A stretch of DNA of 36,016 bases, taken from positions 1-36,016 of the IMG/VR virus record IMGVR_UViG_3300025133_000333; one strand, 5' to 3'. The position numbers and the translations under genes were made by a program. The number at the start of each line of letters is the position of its first letter. The first letter of the stretch is position 1. The notes under the pieces are model-generated. The model did not search any database. It was not told the DNA's origin and saw only the letters and a list, made by a program, of their open reading frames with translations. Source of the DNA: a virus. Positions 29,002-36,016 of this stretch are shown piece by piece.

Positions 29002-29769
29002 TTACCAAGGTTTATCAGTGGACCAAGCCGCTCCGTTTACTAAAGTCATAGCCGCAAAGCTGTTTCCTGCTAAATCGTTTGCACTAGTGCCTTCATTTTC
29101 ATCCATCTTTAAATACTTCTGCAACCTAGCGGAACCTGTGTAATCTCCAGAATTACTACTTAGATTTGGATTGTCATTATATATAGCAGCTATATTATCT
29201 TCATCTAAAGCAGTATTCCATGTGGCTATCTGATCCAAGTATTGGTTGTAGTATGCTAAACCTGCCAAATTAGATGTGGTAAAGAGGCTAGTTCCAGTAT
29301 GAGATTCTAGGTTTGTTGAAGATGCTACAGAGCTTTCACTGTTAGTGGCCACAACATCACCGTTTATATAACATATAGTACTCCTGTTTGTTGCAGATCC
29401 GTCGCTTACAAAGGCTACGTGATACCAAGTATCAGCGTCCATGTTAGAATTAAACACAGCGTTGATAACAGTAGTACTTGTTCCTGTAGCTCCTACTATT
29501 TGCATATCCCCACCAGCACTACATGCTATCCATAGGTATTCACTAGGATATGTCCCTTTCCAAAACACCGTTTGGTTAGTAGTGGTAACAAATTTAACGT
29601 AGAAAGATAGCGTCCAACTACCAGTCGCCAAAGTATCAAAAAGATTATCTCCATCAGGTTGCGACAGATAGTCATTAGTACCATCCATAAGGATAGAGTA
29701 CGAGTTGGTATTAGTCGATGGCGGTAATGATTTTACTAAACTACCGATACTAGATCTTAATCCTAACAC
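29002..29769 (-). CDS. LamG / concanavalin-like lectin-fold virion protein
   Basis: The start is a GTG at 29769 that overlaps the TAG of the preceding gene by one base (TAGTG), matching other junctions here. The alternative TTG at 29823 would need a 55-bp overlap. The chain (255 aa) contains SILMDGTNDYLSQPDG, a SWTLSFYVKF strand, DADTWYHVAFVSDG, TICYINGDVV and a DQIATWNTALDEDNIAAIYN segment, all characteristic of LamG/laminin-G-like domains (Concanavalin A-like fold). Such domains bind sugars, and in phages they decorate capsids or tail fibres. The N-terminal 25 residues (LGLRSSIGSLVKSLPPS) are a short helical anchor. It lies beside another small virion-like gene. Confidence 0.8.
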   Translation of the reverse strand: MLGLRSSIGSLVKSLPPSTNTNSYSILMDGTNDYLSQPDGDNLFDTLATGSWTLSFYVKFVTTTNQTVFWKGTYPSEYLWIACSAGGDMQIVGATGTSTTVINAVFNSNMDADTWYHVAFVSDGSATNRSTICYINGDVVATNSESSVASSTNLESHTGTSLFTTSNLAGLAYYNQYLDQIATWNTALDEDNIAAIYNDNPNLSSNSGDYTGSARLQKYLKMDENEGTSANDLAGNSFAAMTLVNGAAWSTDKPW

Positions 29770-30125
29770 TAGCCTAGGTATGCTATAAAGGCTGTAGCCC
29801 CAGATGTTGATATCTCTGACCAACGACCATAAATAGTGATACCCGCTGGAAACTCTGTCCCAGTGGCAATCTCACCTTTCGTGCCTTCGGTTCTTGTAGG
29901 TGCGTTATCAGCGTCTGCATCAGTTCTATCGTGAGAGGCAGGGTTTCCAATACACTGCACCTTCCCGCTTCTGTCATCTTTAAGCACATCAAAGGTGCAA
30001 GCATCTACGCATGTTATAGCTGTAAAAACTTTTCCAACTGGAGGTTTTACAGTGCTTGCGGCGGTTTTACAGAACACAGATCCCAGTTGCCCAAGACCAA
30101 ATGCTGTTGTTGAGTTCATTCCCAT
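29769..30125 (-). CDS. Small putative virion protein (118 aa)
   Basis: The start is the ATG at 30125 (MGMNSTTAFGLGQLGS), one base after the holin-like gene; an ATG two codons later is equally possible. The chain is beta-rich and Gly/Thr/Ala-heavy with four cysteines in the N-terminal half (CKTAAS, CVDACTF and a CIGN site) and ends GITIYGRWSEISTSGATAFI, a short pattern I have seen in phage minor capsid/decoration proteins. Its stop overlaps the GTG start of the LamG-like gene. Role inferred from composition and neighbours. Confidence 0.65.
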   Translation of the reverse strand: MGMNSTTAFGLGQLGSVFCKTAASTVKPPVGKVFTAITCVDACTFDVLKDDRSGKVQCIGNPASHDRTDADADNAPTRTEGTKGEIATGTEFPAGITIYGRWSEISTSGATAFIAYLG

Positions 30126-31116: not shown

Positions 31117-31557
31117 TTATCTATCTTTATCTCGTATCATATCATCTATAGACTTATTCATGACTTTATCTGTATATGATACGTTATTGTAAAAAACACT
31201 ACGCTCTGAGGTAGGTAAATCTTCCTCACCTAGTAGTATTCGGTATATGCGACTCACGAGTTGAGAGCATTTAAAAGAGGTTTTAAATATAGAGTATTTA
31301 ATACTCGTTCGGTTTCTATGTCGCCAGACTTCTATCCACCCGGCTGATCGCAGTCTCTCCCACCTTTTCTTATCCCAAGAATACGTGTAAGCGCCGTCGA
31401 TGAATTCGTTTCGGGTAAATCTACCCTTATGATCTAGATATATCAACAACTCTAGATCAGCATCTGTTAACCCGTAAGTCTTACAGGCCCACTTCCTCGT
31501 GAGCCTGTAGTACTTAAGGATGTTCATCTCTTTAAGATCTTGAGATGTAATTCTCAT
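31117..31557 (-). CDS. Winged-helix DNA-binding-like protein (146 aa)
   Basis: The ATG overlaps the GroES stop (ATGA). The middle reads as a winged helix: a helix with DADLELLIYLDHKGRF, a TRNEFIDGAY segment, a recognition-like helix SWDKKRWERLRSAGWIEV, and a beta wing RHRNRTSIKYSIFK. This matches MarR-type winged-helix patterns. Two cysteines and a basic N-terminus are also present, and the C-terminal 40 residues are polar. Being co-transcribed with GroES suggests a regulator or a virion protein with DNA contact; no partner operator was identified. Confidence 0.6.
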   Translation of the reverse strand: MRITSQDLKEMNILKYYRLTRKWACKTYGLTDADLELLIYLDHKGRFTRNEFIDGAYTYSWDKKRWERLRSAGWIEVWRHRNRTSIKYSIFKTSFKCSQLVSRIYRILLGEEDLPTSERSVFYNNVSYTDKVMNKSIDDMIRDKDR

Positions 31558-31811
31558 TCCACTAAAACCACATCTCTTGCTCGGATTACATGGTACATTG
31601 TATCCGCCCAGGTTATACCATGCCCAGCGTGTTTGTCGTAATATATAATGTCTTCATCTTTTAGACCTTCCACTAGATTACCTGTAGAGATAATCGTAGC
31701 TTTTACGTACCTATTCGTTTCGTCTAATTCTTCTGTGAGAAGTAGACCACCAACTTTTTTAGGCCCTGCTTTCTCTATATCTACTACTATGTAATCGTTA
31801 ATGGCTTTCAT
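31554..31811 (-). CDS. groES: GroES co-chaperonin (phage-encoded, 85 aa)
   Basis: The start is the ATG at 31811 (MKAINDYIVVDIEK); an ATG four codons upstream at 31823 gives the same frame. The protein has the Cpn10 N-terminal strand (DYIVVDI), a mobile loop with the GGLLLT hydrophobic tip (corresponding to GGIVLT in E. coli GroES), a TIISTGN strand, a KDEDIIYYD segment and the closing strand VIRARDVVLVE. It is about 12 residues shorter than E. coli GroES, the shortening falling where the roof beta-hairpin lies. It overlaps the end of GroEL by 14 bp, so both are co-translated. It should cap the GroEL ring; partner specificity is untested. Confidence 0.88.
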   Translation of the reverse strand: MKAINDYIVVDIEKAGPKKVGGLLLTEELDETNRYVKATIISTGNLVEGLKDEDIIYYDKHAGHGITWADTMYHVIRARDVVLVE

Positions 31812-33366
31812 CTGCTCTAGCATTTGAGATTACACAATCTGCGGATATAATGGTTGATACCACTGATACCGCGTTTTTTAGAGCTGACTTAGTTACAAGC
31901 ACTGGATCTACAATCCCAGCCTCTAACATGTCAACGCATTTACCAGATATAACATCTACTCCACAGGATTCCTTATCTTCACACACCATGTCCGATATAC
32001 CTGCGTTATCTAATATAGTGTAGAAAGGAGATCTAATAGCTTTAAGAAGTATCTCTTCCCCTACGTTTGTAGGTTTAATTTTTTCAGATGCCCATAACAA
32101 GGCGGCTCCACCACCAGCCACGATACCTTCTTTTAAAGCGGCTTTAGTTGCGTATATAGCATCTTCGGCCCTATCTTTCTTTTCTTTGAGTTCGACTTTA
32201 GAATCAGCTCCAATTCGTACAATACCTACAGATCCAGATAAAGAAGCTAATCTTTGCTCTAACTTCTTCTTTATAAATCCATTTTTCTCTGTAGCTATTT
32301 TTTTAGTTACTTCTGCTATCCTTTCAGTTGTTTCCTCAGTGATCTCCTCTAAGGTTATTACTGTAGAACTATCGTCTGTAACAACTGTCTCCGCCCTCCC
32401 CAAGTGATCTACACTTATAAGATCTAAATCATCTCCCAATTCCTCATTTATAACTGTGGCCCCAGTGAGGATAGCTAAATCCTCTGTAGCATCCTTCTTC
32501 GTGGGGCCAAATCCTGGTAGGTCTATAATATTAATCTTTATATTCCCTTTTACCTTATTCATAAGTAAAGCACTCTTTACCTGTTGTGCTACAGGCGCTA
32601 TAATTAAAAGGGCTCTCCCTTTCTTTATAACATGTTCTAATACCGTTTGTATCTTTCGTACGTTGGGAATCTCGCTAGACACGATTAAGATATATGGATC
32701 TTCTAATTCAGAGATATGTTTCTCTGTATTCGTTACCCAGTGCGGAGATGTTAATCCGCAATCTATCTGAACTCCATCAACTAATTCCACATATGTTTCC
32801 TCTGTCTCACTTTCTTCCATGAGAACAACGCCTTCTTTCCCAACTTTTTGATACGCTTCTGATATAATAGCACCGAGAGCTTTATCATTATTACAAGAGA
32901 TAGCGCTAACACTCTCAAGCATATCTCCCACAACTTCAATAGCAGAGGTTTCGAGGTACTCATTGACCTTTTGAAGTCCCGAGTTAATACCCTCTTTAAT
33001 ATCTCGAATTGAGTTGCCACTATACTGTTCTGAATTTACTGTTTTAAGTAGTGATTCAGCAAGTACAGTAGCTGTAGTAGTTCCGTCCCCTGCCTCTTTC
33101 ACGGTATTGCTAGCGGCTTCCTTTATTAGGGTGGCCCCTATGTTTTCAACCGGATCATACAAGACTACGCTTTGAGCAACGGTTACACCGTCTTTTGTTA
33201 TGACCGGCTTTCCGCGCGCGTCCTCATATATTACACACTTCCCAGAAGCGCCTAATGTAGATTTCACGGCTTTAGCTAATTTTTCTACTCCGGCTATGAC
33301 TTTGTCTTTAGCCTCCTCGCCGAAGTCTAGTGATTTTATTAACTCACTAGGTAAGTTATATTCCAT
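31798..33366 (-). CDS. groEL: GroEL chaperonin (phage-encoded, 522 aa)
   Basis: The hallmark ATP-site motifs are TKDGVTVA (residues 57-64, D59) and AGDGTTTATVLA (92-103, D94), equivalent to E. coli D52 and D87 regions, and AEDAIYATKAALKEGIVAGGG (400-420, D402), equivalent to the catalytic D398 region. The apical domain has the expected VELVDGVQIDCGL and VLEHVIKKGRALLIIAP segments. The usual TLGPKG is TLGASG here. The C-terminus ends NARADESH without the GGM repeat. It is upstream of GroES with a 14-bp overlap. A phage GroEL in the late operon suggests folding of capsid, portal or giant tail proteins that the host chaperonin serves poorly; phage-encoded GroEL is known from Pseudomonas phage EL and from virioplankton. 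Confidence 0.95.
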   Translation of the reverse strand: MEYNLPSELIKSLDFGEEAKDKVIAGVEKLAKAVKSTLGASGKCVIYEDARGKPVITKDGVTVAQSVVLYDPVENIGATLIKEAASNTVKEAGDGTTTATVLAESLLKTVNSEQYSGNSIRDIKEGINSGLQKVNEYLETSAIEVVGDMLESVSAISCNNDKALGAIISEAYQKVGKEGVVLMEESETEETYVELVDGVQIDCGLTSPHWVTNTEKHISELEDPYILIVSSEIPNVRKIQTVLEHVIKKGRALLIIAPVAQQVKSALLMNKVKGNIKINIIDLPGFGPTKKDATEDLAILTGATVINEELGDDLDLISVDHLGRAETVVTDDSSTVITLEEITEETTERIAEVTKKIATEKNGFIKKKLEQRLASLSGSVGIVRIGADSKVELKEKKDRAEDAIYATKAALKEGIVAGGGAALLWASEKIKPTNVGEEILLKAIRSPFYTILDNAGISDMVCEDKESCGVDVISGKCVDMLEAGIVDPVLVTKSALKNAVSVVSTIISADCVISNARADESH

Positions 33367-34360: not shown

Positions 34361-35236
34361 TTATCCTTTTGAATTTATAGCAGCGACATCTTTTTCAAGT
34401 TGGGCGCTAGCTGCTTGTGTGTTAGCTTTTTTATTACTTTTTGCGGCTTGGTCTGCAGCCTTTTTTACGTCGCGTCTAGAACCGCCAGATTCGCTTTTAG
34501 CTTGCTGTCTTAATCGCTTACGGCCAGCTCTATCGCTAGCTTTGTACTCATCGCTTTGTTTTACCTCCTTTTTAGCTTGACCTTTAGTCAATGTCCTCTT
34601 ACGAGCAGTCTCAGCTATAAGCGCTGCCTCTTTCGCATCGGCTGTACCAGCTGCCTCCTTCTTTCTGTCTTCACGTTCTTTACCTCTAGTAATTGCAGCC
34701 TGAGCATCTCGCTCTCCCTGGCCTGACGCTTTCTTTTTTGTACCTTTGTAGTCACTAGCAACTACTGTGCTACCTCCTTTAGTTCTACCTTGTGATTCTA
34801 CGAGAGTATCTGATTTATCTTTATTGCTCTTCTTTGTTGTAACGTTTCCGCTTTTCCCACTACCAGTTTTATCACCATGTGATTTATCCACATTGCCAGC
34901 TTTACCGGGTGCCGTAGTTTGTAAACCTGGCTTTTCAACACCAGTAGCTATTTCAGAAGCTTTTATTGACGGTTTCGCAGCTGGTTTATTAATTCTCTTA
35001 CCTGCAACTGTATCGTCTGACCCCTTAGTGACCCTTGTTTTACCGTATGCGGCATTAATTTTAGCTTGCGCTGTCTCGTACGCTTCGGATCCAACTTCGT
35101 TAGCGTTCCTAGTTTTAATGTAAGAATCTAAATTAGCGTCTTTAGCTTTTGCGTCTGCATAAGGATTCGCTTTTAAAGCGGAGGATCCCATCTTTTTAAA
35201 TGAGGTTGTATTCCCCGATCTTAATTTAAATGCCAT
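34361..35236 (-). CDS. Very lysine-rich low-complexity protein with MAFK start (291 aa)
   Basis: The first residues MAFKLRSGNTTSFKKMGSSA are followed by about 270 residues dominated by Lys, Ala, Ser, Gly, Thr, Asp and Arg with very few aromatic or large hydrophobic residues. Segments such as GKSGNVTTKKSNKDKSDT and RAGRKRLRQQAKSESGGSRR are strongly basic, so much of the chain is probably disordered. Basic disordered phage proteins may bind nucleic acid, be packaged with DNA or be host-directed; nothing decides between these. It is 21 bp downstream of the first gene of the operon, with an A-rich leader (CAAAATAAATAAAACAAC). Confidence 0.65.
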   Translation of the reverse strand: MAFKLRSGNTTSFKKMGSSALKANPYADAKAKDANLDSYIKTRNANEVGSEAYETAQAKINAAYGKTRVTKGSDDTVAGKRINKPAAKPSIKASEIATGVEKPGLQTTAPGKAGNVDKSHGDKTGSGKSGNVTTKKSNKDKSDTLVESQGRTKGGSTVVASDYKGTKKKASGQGERDAQAAITRGKEREDRKKEAAGTADAKEAALIAETARKRTLTKGQAKKEVKQSDEYKASDRAGRKRLRQQAKSESGGSRRDVKKAADQAAKSNKKANTQAASAQLEKDVAAINSKG

Positions 35237-35257: not shown

Positions 35258-35650
35258 CTACTGATCCGTGCCTACAACCATAAACTCTACGATAGTCCCG
35301 CTTGTGGTAGCCCATGCTTTTAATGTATCATCAGCGATTAAAGGTAAGAAAGCCCAATCTCCACCAGCTAGTTTTAGTAAGTTATCAACTCCCCCGTCTT
35401 TGTAGACATAGATGTAGTCCGTAGCGGTGTCATCCGTGTTCTTAACATACAAATATGCGATAGCAGCGAAGTCATCTCCTGTGTATAGCGTCACCTGACC
35501 TGAGGCTGTTCCTACGGCTGTAGACGTTATTGGTTGTCTAGCTAAACCAGTGGTATGGCTAGCCGTGATACTTGTATTAGTCGACAAACTCAAAGAGTCC
35601 GTAACCAGATCTGTACTAGCTAATGTAAGTGTCGGTGTTAGTGTTGCCAT
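35258..35650 (-). CDS. Beta-rich putative virion decoration protein (130 aa), first gene of the block
   Basis: The protein (MATLTPTLTLASTD...) is rich in Thr, Ser, Ala and Val with alternating strands, an AYLYVKNTDDTATDYIYVYKDGG hairpin-like segment and a LAGGDWAFLPL segment near residues 94-104. This composition and pattern resemble small structural proteins in marine phage genomes. It is the first gene of the minus-strand block, with a hairpin-forming leader just upstream and the G-rich control region beyond. Function is inferred as virion-associated. Confidence 0.65.
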   Translation of the reverse strand: MATLTPTLTLASTDLVTDSLSLSTNTSITASHTTGLARQPITSTAVGTASGQVTLYTGDDFAAIAYLYVKNTDDTATDYIYVYKDGGVDNLLKLAGGDWAFLPLIADDTLKAWATTSGTIVEFMVVGTDQ

Positions 35651-35675: not shown

Positions 35676-35734
35676 TCACATGATTAATAATATTTTTACA
35701 AAACATGACACTAGCCTGCTACTCTTAACCCTTA

Positions 35735-35779
35735 TACCTTATGTCACCTATAGATATTAGGGACTAATATCCTAAGGTA
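35735..35779 (-). promoter_or_regulatory. Nested inverted repeats in the leader region
   Basis: An inner perfect stem GATATTAG / CTAATATC with a GGA centre (35753-35771) is enclosed by an outer 7-bp stem TACCTTA (35735-35741) and TAAGGTA (35773-35779). In addition CCTATA (35747-35752) can pair with TATAGG (35786-35791). The unit could be an operator or structured leader RNA; function is unknown. Confidence 0.4.
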
Positions 35780-35800
35780 CCCGTATATAGGAGGTACCCG
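35776..35800 (-). repeat. Direct repeat GGTACCCG x2
   Basis: GGTACCCG occurs at 35776-35783 and 35793-35800, a 17-base period, each containing the GGTACC palindrome, next to the nested inverted repeats. It may be a protein-binding pair. Confidence 0.4.
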
Positions 35801-35836
35801 CGAAAAGGACATTGTAAATATATAGAGTTTGTATTG

Positions 35837-35907
35837 CCCCCTCCCCCCTCCCCCGCCCCATCCAAAATAAAAACCCCAACTTTTACCCCACCCCACCTTC
35901 TCTCCCC
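35837..35907 (-). other. G-rich, G-quadruplex-forming tract
   Basis: Minus-strand G-runs include four consecutive ones of 5, 6, 5 and 4 (plus-strand C-runs at 35837-35841, 35843-35848, 35850-35854 and 35856-35859) separated by a single base, the tightest possible G4 arrangement. Further G-runs follow at plus-strand C 35874-35877, 35886-35889, 35891-35894 and 35904-35907. It stands out sharply in an A/T-rich genome and lies in the control region upstream of the minus-strand operon. Confidence 0.6.
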
Positions 35908-35915
35908 ATATATCA

Positions 35916-35944
35916 TTTCTACAAACTAAATACGACTACATTTG
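35916..35944 (+). promoter_or_regulatory. Candidate Bacteroidetes-type promoter (plus strand)
   Basis: TACATTTG at 35937-35944 matches the Bacteroidetes -7 consensus TAnnTTTG exactly, and TTTC at 35916-35919 (17 bp upstream; consensus TTTG) could be the -33 element. It would drive the plus-strand ORF from 35957 off the right edge. The leader would be only about 5-10 bases. Confidence 0.4.
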
Positions 35945-35956
35945 GATAATATATAT

Positions 35957-36016
35957 ATGAAAACAATAATACTAAATCTTTTATACAATTTATATCTCGT
36001 AATTCTATTTACTATA
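35957..36016 (+). CDS. Plus-strand hydrophobic ORF start, off the right edge
   Basis: The ATG at 35957 opens a frame that remains open for 20 codons to the last base, reading MKTIILNLLYNLYLVILFTI, which is strongly hydrophobic like a membrane protein or signal segment. It lies 12 bases after the promoter candidate's TTTG. It is the only plus-strand frame I consider possibly real, and its truncation at the window edge keeps confidence low. The A/T-rich composition alone can produce such frames. Confidence 0.35.
   Translation, partial: MKTIILNLLYNLYLVILFTI

Follow-up and report, generated by a model that had tools for sequence, protein, structure and literature searches.

A G-rich tract in an uncultured phage lies within a conserved element that is probably a late-operon promoter

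The G-rich tract near one end of viral record IMGVR_UViG_3300025133_000333 (the window analyzed here, i.e., the whole 36,016-base contig) is the upstream portion of a longer conserved element that extends to position 35810 and is kept in over a hundred relatives, counting contigs found through GroEL together with those found by motif scan. We put at roughly 0.68 the probability that this element is the conserved promoter from which all virion and packaging genes are transcribed as a late operon, one that probably depends on an activator and whose G-rich upstream region is unusual. What the sequence itself shows is a conserved layout that occurs once per genome, at a constant place, and with a start-site signature; from these we infer promoter activity, use of the host polymerase, an activator, and late timing.

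The G tract and its genomic setting

Eight G runs of 4 to 6 bases each lie on the minus strand inside 71 bases (35837 to 35907). Given as C runs of the plus strand, four follow one another with single-base spacers (35837 to 35841, 5 bases; 35843 to 35848, 6 bases; 35850 to 35854, 5 bases; 35856 to 35859, 4 bases), and four further runs of 4 bases lie beyond them (35874 to 35877, 35886 to 35889, 35891 to 35894, and 35904 to 35907). With four G runs close together, the tract is a candidate quadruplex-forming sequence, and its G4Hunter score is 2.77 over 30 nt. The GC content of the window is about 40%, and the one four-run G4+ tract observed compares with none in 300 simulated 36-kb sequences (first-order Markov model on the window's own dinucleotide frequencies, 300 replicates). 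A tract with slightly different run lengths was also independently assembled, at the same location, in contig L003 from a different metagenome (GroEL 91% identical). The verified run coordinates, the simulations, and the recurrence in L003 all bear out the earlier note in its claim that the tract is plain in the sequence. Because the L003 tract was assembled independently from another metagenome, the tract is not an artefact. The chance that it arose in sequencing or assembly is close to nil: although one contig, L008, opens with 31 G (positions 1 to 31), probably a read artefact at the tract, similar tracts occupy the same location in independent metagenomes, and conserved non-G sequence flanks both sides.

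The tract is located between two divergent gene blocks, and the window stops 109 bases past it. The minus-strand block below 35650 encodes GroEL, GroES, terminase, portal, and virion proteins. The same note had described a block of about 30 codirectional genes, which is roughly correct, nearly all long open reading frames (ORFs) from 35650 down to 1 being on the minus strand. The first ORF of this late block in the ORF list (35258 to 35650, minus strand, 130 aa) has no family match, and a search for relatives of the second late gene (34361 to 35236) found none. The GroEL and GroES genes lie at 31554 to 33366 (minus strand), the GroEL matching uncultured contigs at up to 91% versus under 60% for any phage record. 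A Laminin_G_3 domain (concanavalin A-like lectin) is encoded at 29002 to 29823 (minus strand), in what may be a virion protein that binds the host.

No DNA similar to the window was found in the phage collection, and the window had no Rfam 15 match at E values up to 1, the only matches in relatives being tRNAs, in seven of them. The terminase and portal best match those of Elemovirus, Callevirus, and related phages. The host is likely a member of the Bacteroidetes, since the nearest annotated relatives are the Manatee Spring podovirus (terminase 63% identical), Flavobacterium Elemovirus, and Cellulophaga phi38:1 (family Pervagoviridae).

Fourteen bases beyond the tract, and facing away from it toward the other block, is a motif of early type, ACAAACTAAATACGA-N6-TTGGATAATATATAT (35921 to 35957, plus strand). 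Eight of nine related contigs carry it in its repeated form, ACAAACTAAATACGA-N6-TTGGATAATATATATG, with 2 to 10 copies per genome that nearly always lie in the opposite block and share one direction. The sequence pattern makes it likely that the copy at 35921 to 35957 is an early promoter.

The conserved element and its predicted start site

Among the 80 related contigs gathered via GroEL, many had a G-rich stretch upstream of that gene. A first alignment gave a core of roughly GGGGG-C-WACRC-N3-ACYCC-WAWATTTRYAAY, and the core consensus is GGGGG-SNRCRC-N3-ACYCC-WAWATTTRYAAY-R. Scanning 2.9 million viral contigs for the core motif returned 61 contigs with one site each, versus none for the reversed motif; the scan and GroEL sets partly overlap, some contigs being common to both, and two extra contigs with the element, from bacterial genome bins, brought the 61 to 63. 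The ORF downstream of the element points away from it in 59/61 contigs, the last ORF upstream is on the other strand in 32/32, and a GACA/TGTC dyad lies downstream in 52/63. Searched with the core profile, none of nine long contigs had more than one convincing site, and this lay where the divergent blocks adjoin. Elemovirus, phi38:1, Panino, and the Manatee Spring virus, all of them partial records or sequences, gave no detectable core. Contigs L186 (NZMJ01000080.1, binned as Maricaulis) and L187 (NYWC01000123.1, binned as a gammaproteobacterium) carry the phage element with the same flanks and are for that reason probably misbinned phage contigs.

In order, the single-copy element consists of box A, which is G rich; box B, which is T rich; a stretch that varies between G-rich and palindromic sequence; and the core. 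Box A, identified by wide alignment, is GGTGGGGTGGGGTAAAAG (35880 to 35897, minus strand), its GGGG being found in 85% of 46 nonredundant sequences versus 4% in the flank. Box B, GTTTTTATTTT in the window (35863 to 35873, minus strand) and GACTTTT or CGTTTTT in relatives, is present in 91% of the same number of nonredundant sequences versus 6.5% in the flank. Both boxes, which lie some 80 bases before the predicted start, are conserved in sequences outside those that defined them. The stretch between box B and the core holds either extra G runs or palindromes such as CTGGGTACCAG. The upstream part of the core, GGGGGCAATACAAACTC (35823 to 35841, minus strand; profile match E value of 8e-8, and alignment), consists of a G run and then a CWACRC-type motif, and the spacing from the G run to the ATTT that follows is rigid in the alignment of relatives. 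An RNA hairpin in the core pairing GGGG with CYCC was also considered; all of its pairs are G-C or G-U and none shows a double change, and it was discarded as unsupported.

Next to this upstream part is a predicted -7 box, TATATTTA (35815 to 35822, minus strand; consensus WAWATTTR), placed by the alignment of relatives and by the position of the sigma-A box; its ATTT is invariant (34/34 aligned relatives). The base after the core motif, which had been left unspecified in the motif scan, is a purine in 53/53 distinct and 34/34 aligned sequences, and in all 34 of the latter a pyrimidine precedes it. The Flavobacterium sigma-A box TAnnTTTG spans -12 to -5 (PMC9723704), so that the predicted transcription start falls exactly at this conserved purine, a G at 35810 (minus strand). 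Numbered from there, the tract occupies about -27 to -97 and its nearest G run -27 to -31. Compared with TAnnTTTG, the final G is present in only 4/34 sequences (mostly A instead) and the first T in 17/34. The upstream TTG at -33 is absent, and a G run lies about there instead: a motif search that left G unspecified still found at least 4 G immediately before the motif in 40/51 distinct sequences. A single run is thus favored, and further ones are optional.

Downstream of the start, a leader dyad TGACA...TGTCA (35706 to 35746, minus strand) forms a stable hairpin in most relatives and is degenerate in the window lineage, with z-scores of -3 to -4.8 in several relatives and near zero in the window's own lineage. 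Because the outer pairs hardly vary, covariation cannot prove this hairpin and speaks neither for nor against it. Extra inverted repeats of GGTACC type are found in the leader of the window (35763 to 35805, minus strand), L007, and L017, i.e., in a few related lineages, most relatives being without them.

Alternative readings: a quadruplex, a genome end, or a replication origin

The emphasis of the earlier note on the G-quadruplex is not supported by the comparison of relatives. The multi-run G pattern is not preserved in them, an outcome that the note itself had named as refuting; the position, the core, and usually one adjacent G run are kept. A four-run G3+ pattern was found in 20/49 relatives with the full region and in 22/57 from the scans (33 to 41%), and on the GroEL tree tracts switched between strong and weak at least 7 times on well-supported branches (11 by parsimony). 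With the pattern restricted to 33 to 41% and at least 7 changes on the tree, the quadruplex is optional: this phage may form one, but it is not what is conserved. That it is nonetheless a working part, the nontemplate strand folding and so controlling late transcription or fork passage, would agree with the very high score in the window, with the recurrence of strong tracts in several branches, and with the breaking of contigs at strong tracts, as though polymerases struggle there. We consider this unlikely given the repeated gain or loss of the four-run pattern, its replacement by palindromes in other relatives, and the fact that a run of 4 G beside the core is missing in about 22% of them. 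No phage late promoters with G-quadruplexes were found in the literature searched. Contig breakage also bears on the possibility that the packaged genome physically ends at the tract. Of 57 contig ends in the vicinity, 11 lie within a zone of 110 bases at the tract, and two near-complete contigs, G001 (67,551 bases) and G010 (61,584 bases), both listed as linear in IMG/VR, begin on one side of it and end on the other. Against a genome end, which we regard as very improbable, contigs end at strong tracts only (7/30 versus 0/26 for weak ones; P = 0.012, uncorrected for relatedness), the element is crossed by several contigs, and it lies in the interior of G005, a 66.9-kb contig whose two ends overlap each other. 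The pattern looks as if short reads or assembly fail at strong G tracts while the map itself is circular. Gap closure in the 67.6- and 61.6-kb contigs would then yield circular maps, and a recurrent phage assembly gap would be explained by contigs broken at this promoter.

As a further alternative, replication could begin at the element, with the G tract either belonging to the origin or serving as an R-loop or primer site. It would then be comparable to mitochondrial conserved sequence block II, where a similar sequence, G5-6/A/G5-6, is found at a divergent control region. In 9/9 contigs the minimum of cumulative GC skew falls no more than 250 bases from the element, with the maximum where the blocks meet again; both gene blocks run away from the element, and its flanks are A/T rich. 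The skew minimum fits an origin and equally simple gene orientation, which by itself accounts for it, and no iterons were found near the element, the only repeats being the early-promoter motif and AT-rich pairs. Furthermore, the tract would stay untranscribed from the late promoter because the predicted start is downstream of it, and, unlike the mitochondrial block, the phage tract is not conserved as a quadruplex. An origin thus seems doubtful to us. We find it quite unlikely, too, that the two functions are joined in a combined late promoter and replication start, at which the G-rich nontemplate strand would fold on opening (as a quadruplex or R-loop) and couple late transcription to replication; if so, the palindromes that other lineages have there would act as structural replacements.

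The proposed late promoter in relation to known systems

Interpretation of the element as a late promoter is favored by several features: its single copy at the divergent-block junction in nine long contigs; the ORF orientations, together with the 61 sites of the blind scan versus 0 for the reversed motif; the rigid spacing between G run and ATTT and a purine start where the sigma-A box predicts it; and the conservation of boxes A and B beyond the defining set. It is weakened by a box that ends mostly in A and the missing -33 TTG, by boxes A and B lying farther upstream than a simple promoter needs, by the GC-skew minimum, since some of the conservation could be due to an origin, and by the failure to detect the core in the cultured relatives examined, some of them only partial. 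The earlier proposal that the tract is placed before the late block and could affect transcription initiation is supported, the tract ending at a conserved promoter-like core.

In such a promoter, the polymerase of the host, carrying its main sigma factor, would open the DNA at the WAWATTTR box and begin transcription at the conserved purine, 35810 in the window. The G run and the CWACRC-type motif would replace the missing -33 TTG contact, and boxes A and B would probably be bound by a putative activator, encoded by the phage, which switches the operon on at a late stage. The resulting RNA would start with a leader able, in most relatives, to form the TGACA/TGTCA hairpin. Additional G runs, and hence the quadruplex potential, would be extras in the upstream region that are tolerated or play an auxiliary part. 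The signature suggests that a G-run site stands in for the usual -33 contact in these phages, which points to a putative late activator. No description of late promoters in this uncultured phage group was found in the literature searched, and the signature with its predicted start provides a concrete, testable candidate for common uncultured phages of probable Bacteroidetes hosts.

Compared with the Flavobacterium/Bacteroidetes sigma-A promoter, the element shares an A-nn-TTT box properly spaced from a purine start and an AT-rich start region; unlike it, the element has a box that ends mostly in A and no TTG, and it carries upstream, besides a G run and a CWACRC-type motif, two more boxes. Activator-dependent late promoters such as those of phage Mu with protein C are alike in having one switch before the virion genes, in which a good -10-type box is paired with a weak upstream contact; the upstream boxes of the element are G rich, unlike those of Mu, and the likeness is one of working only. 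The genome plan resembles the Crassvirales type in its divergent blocks, its skew inversion, and its late virion genes kept together (PMC10136315), although the nearest matches of the window are Elemovirus and Pervagoviridae. In crAss-type phages, late genes are thought to use the host polymerase (PMC10136315).
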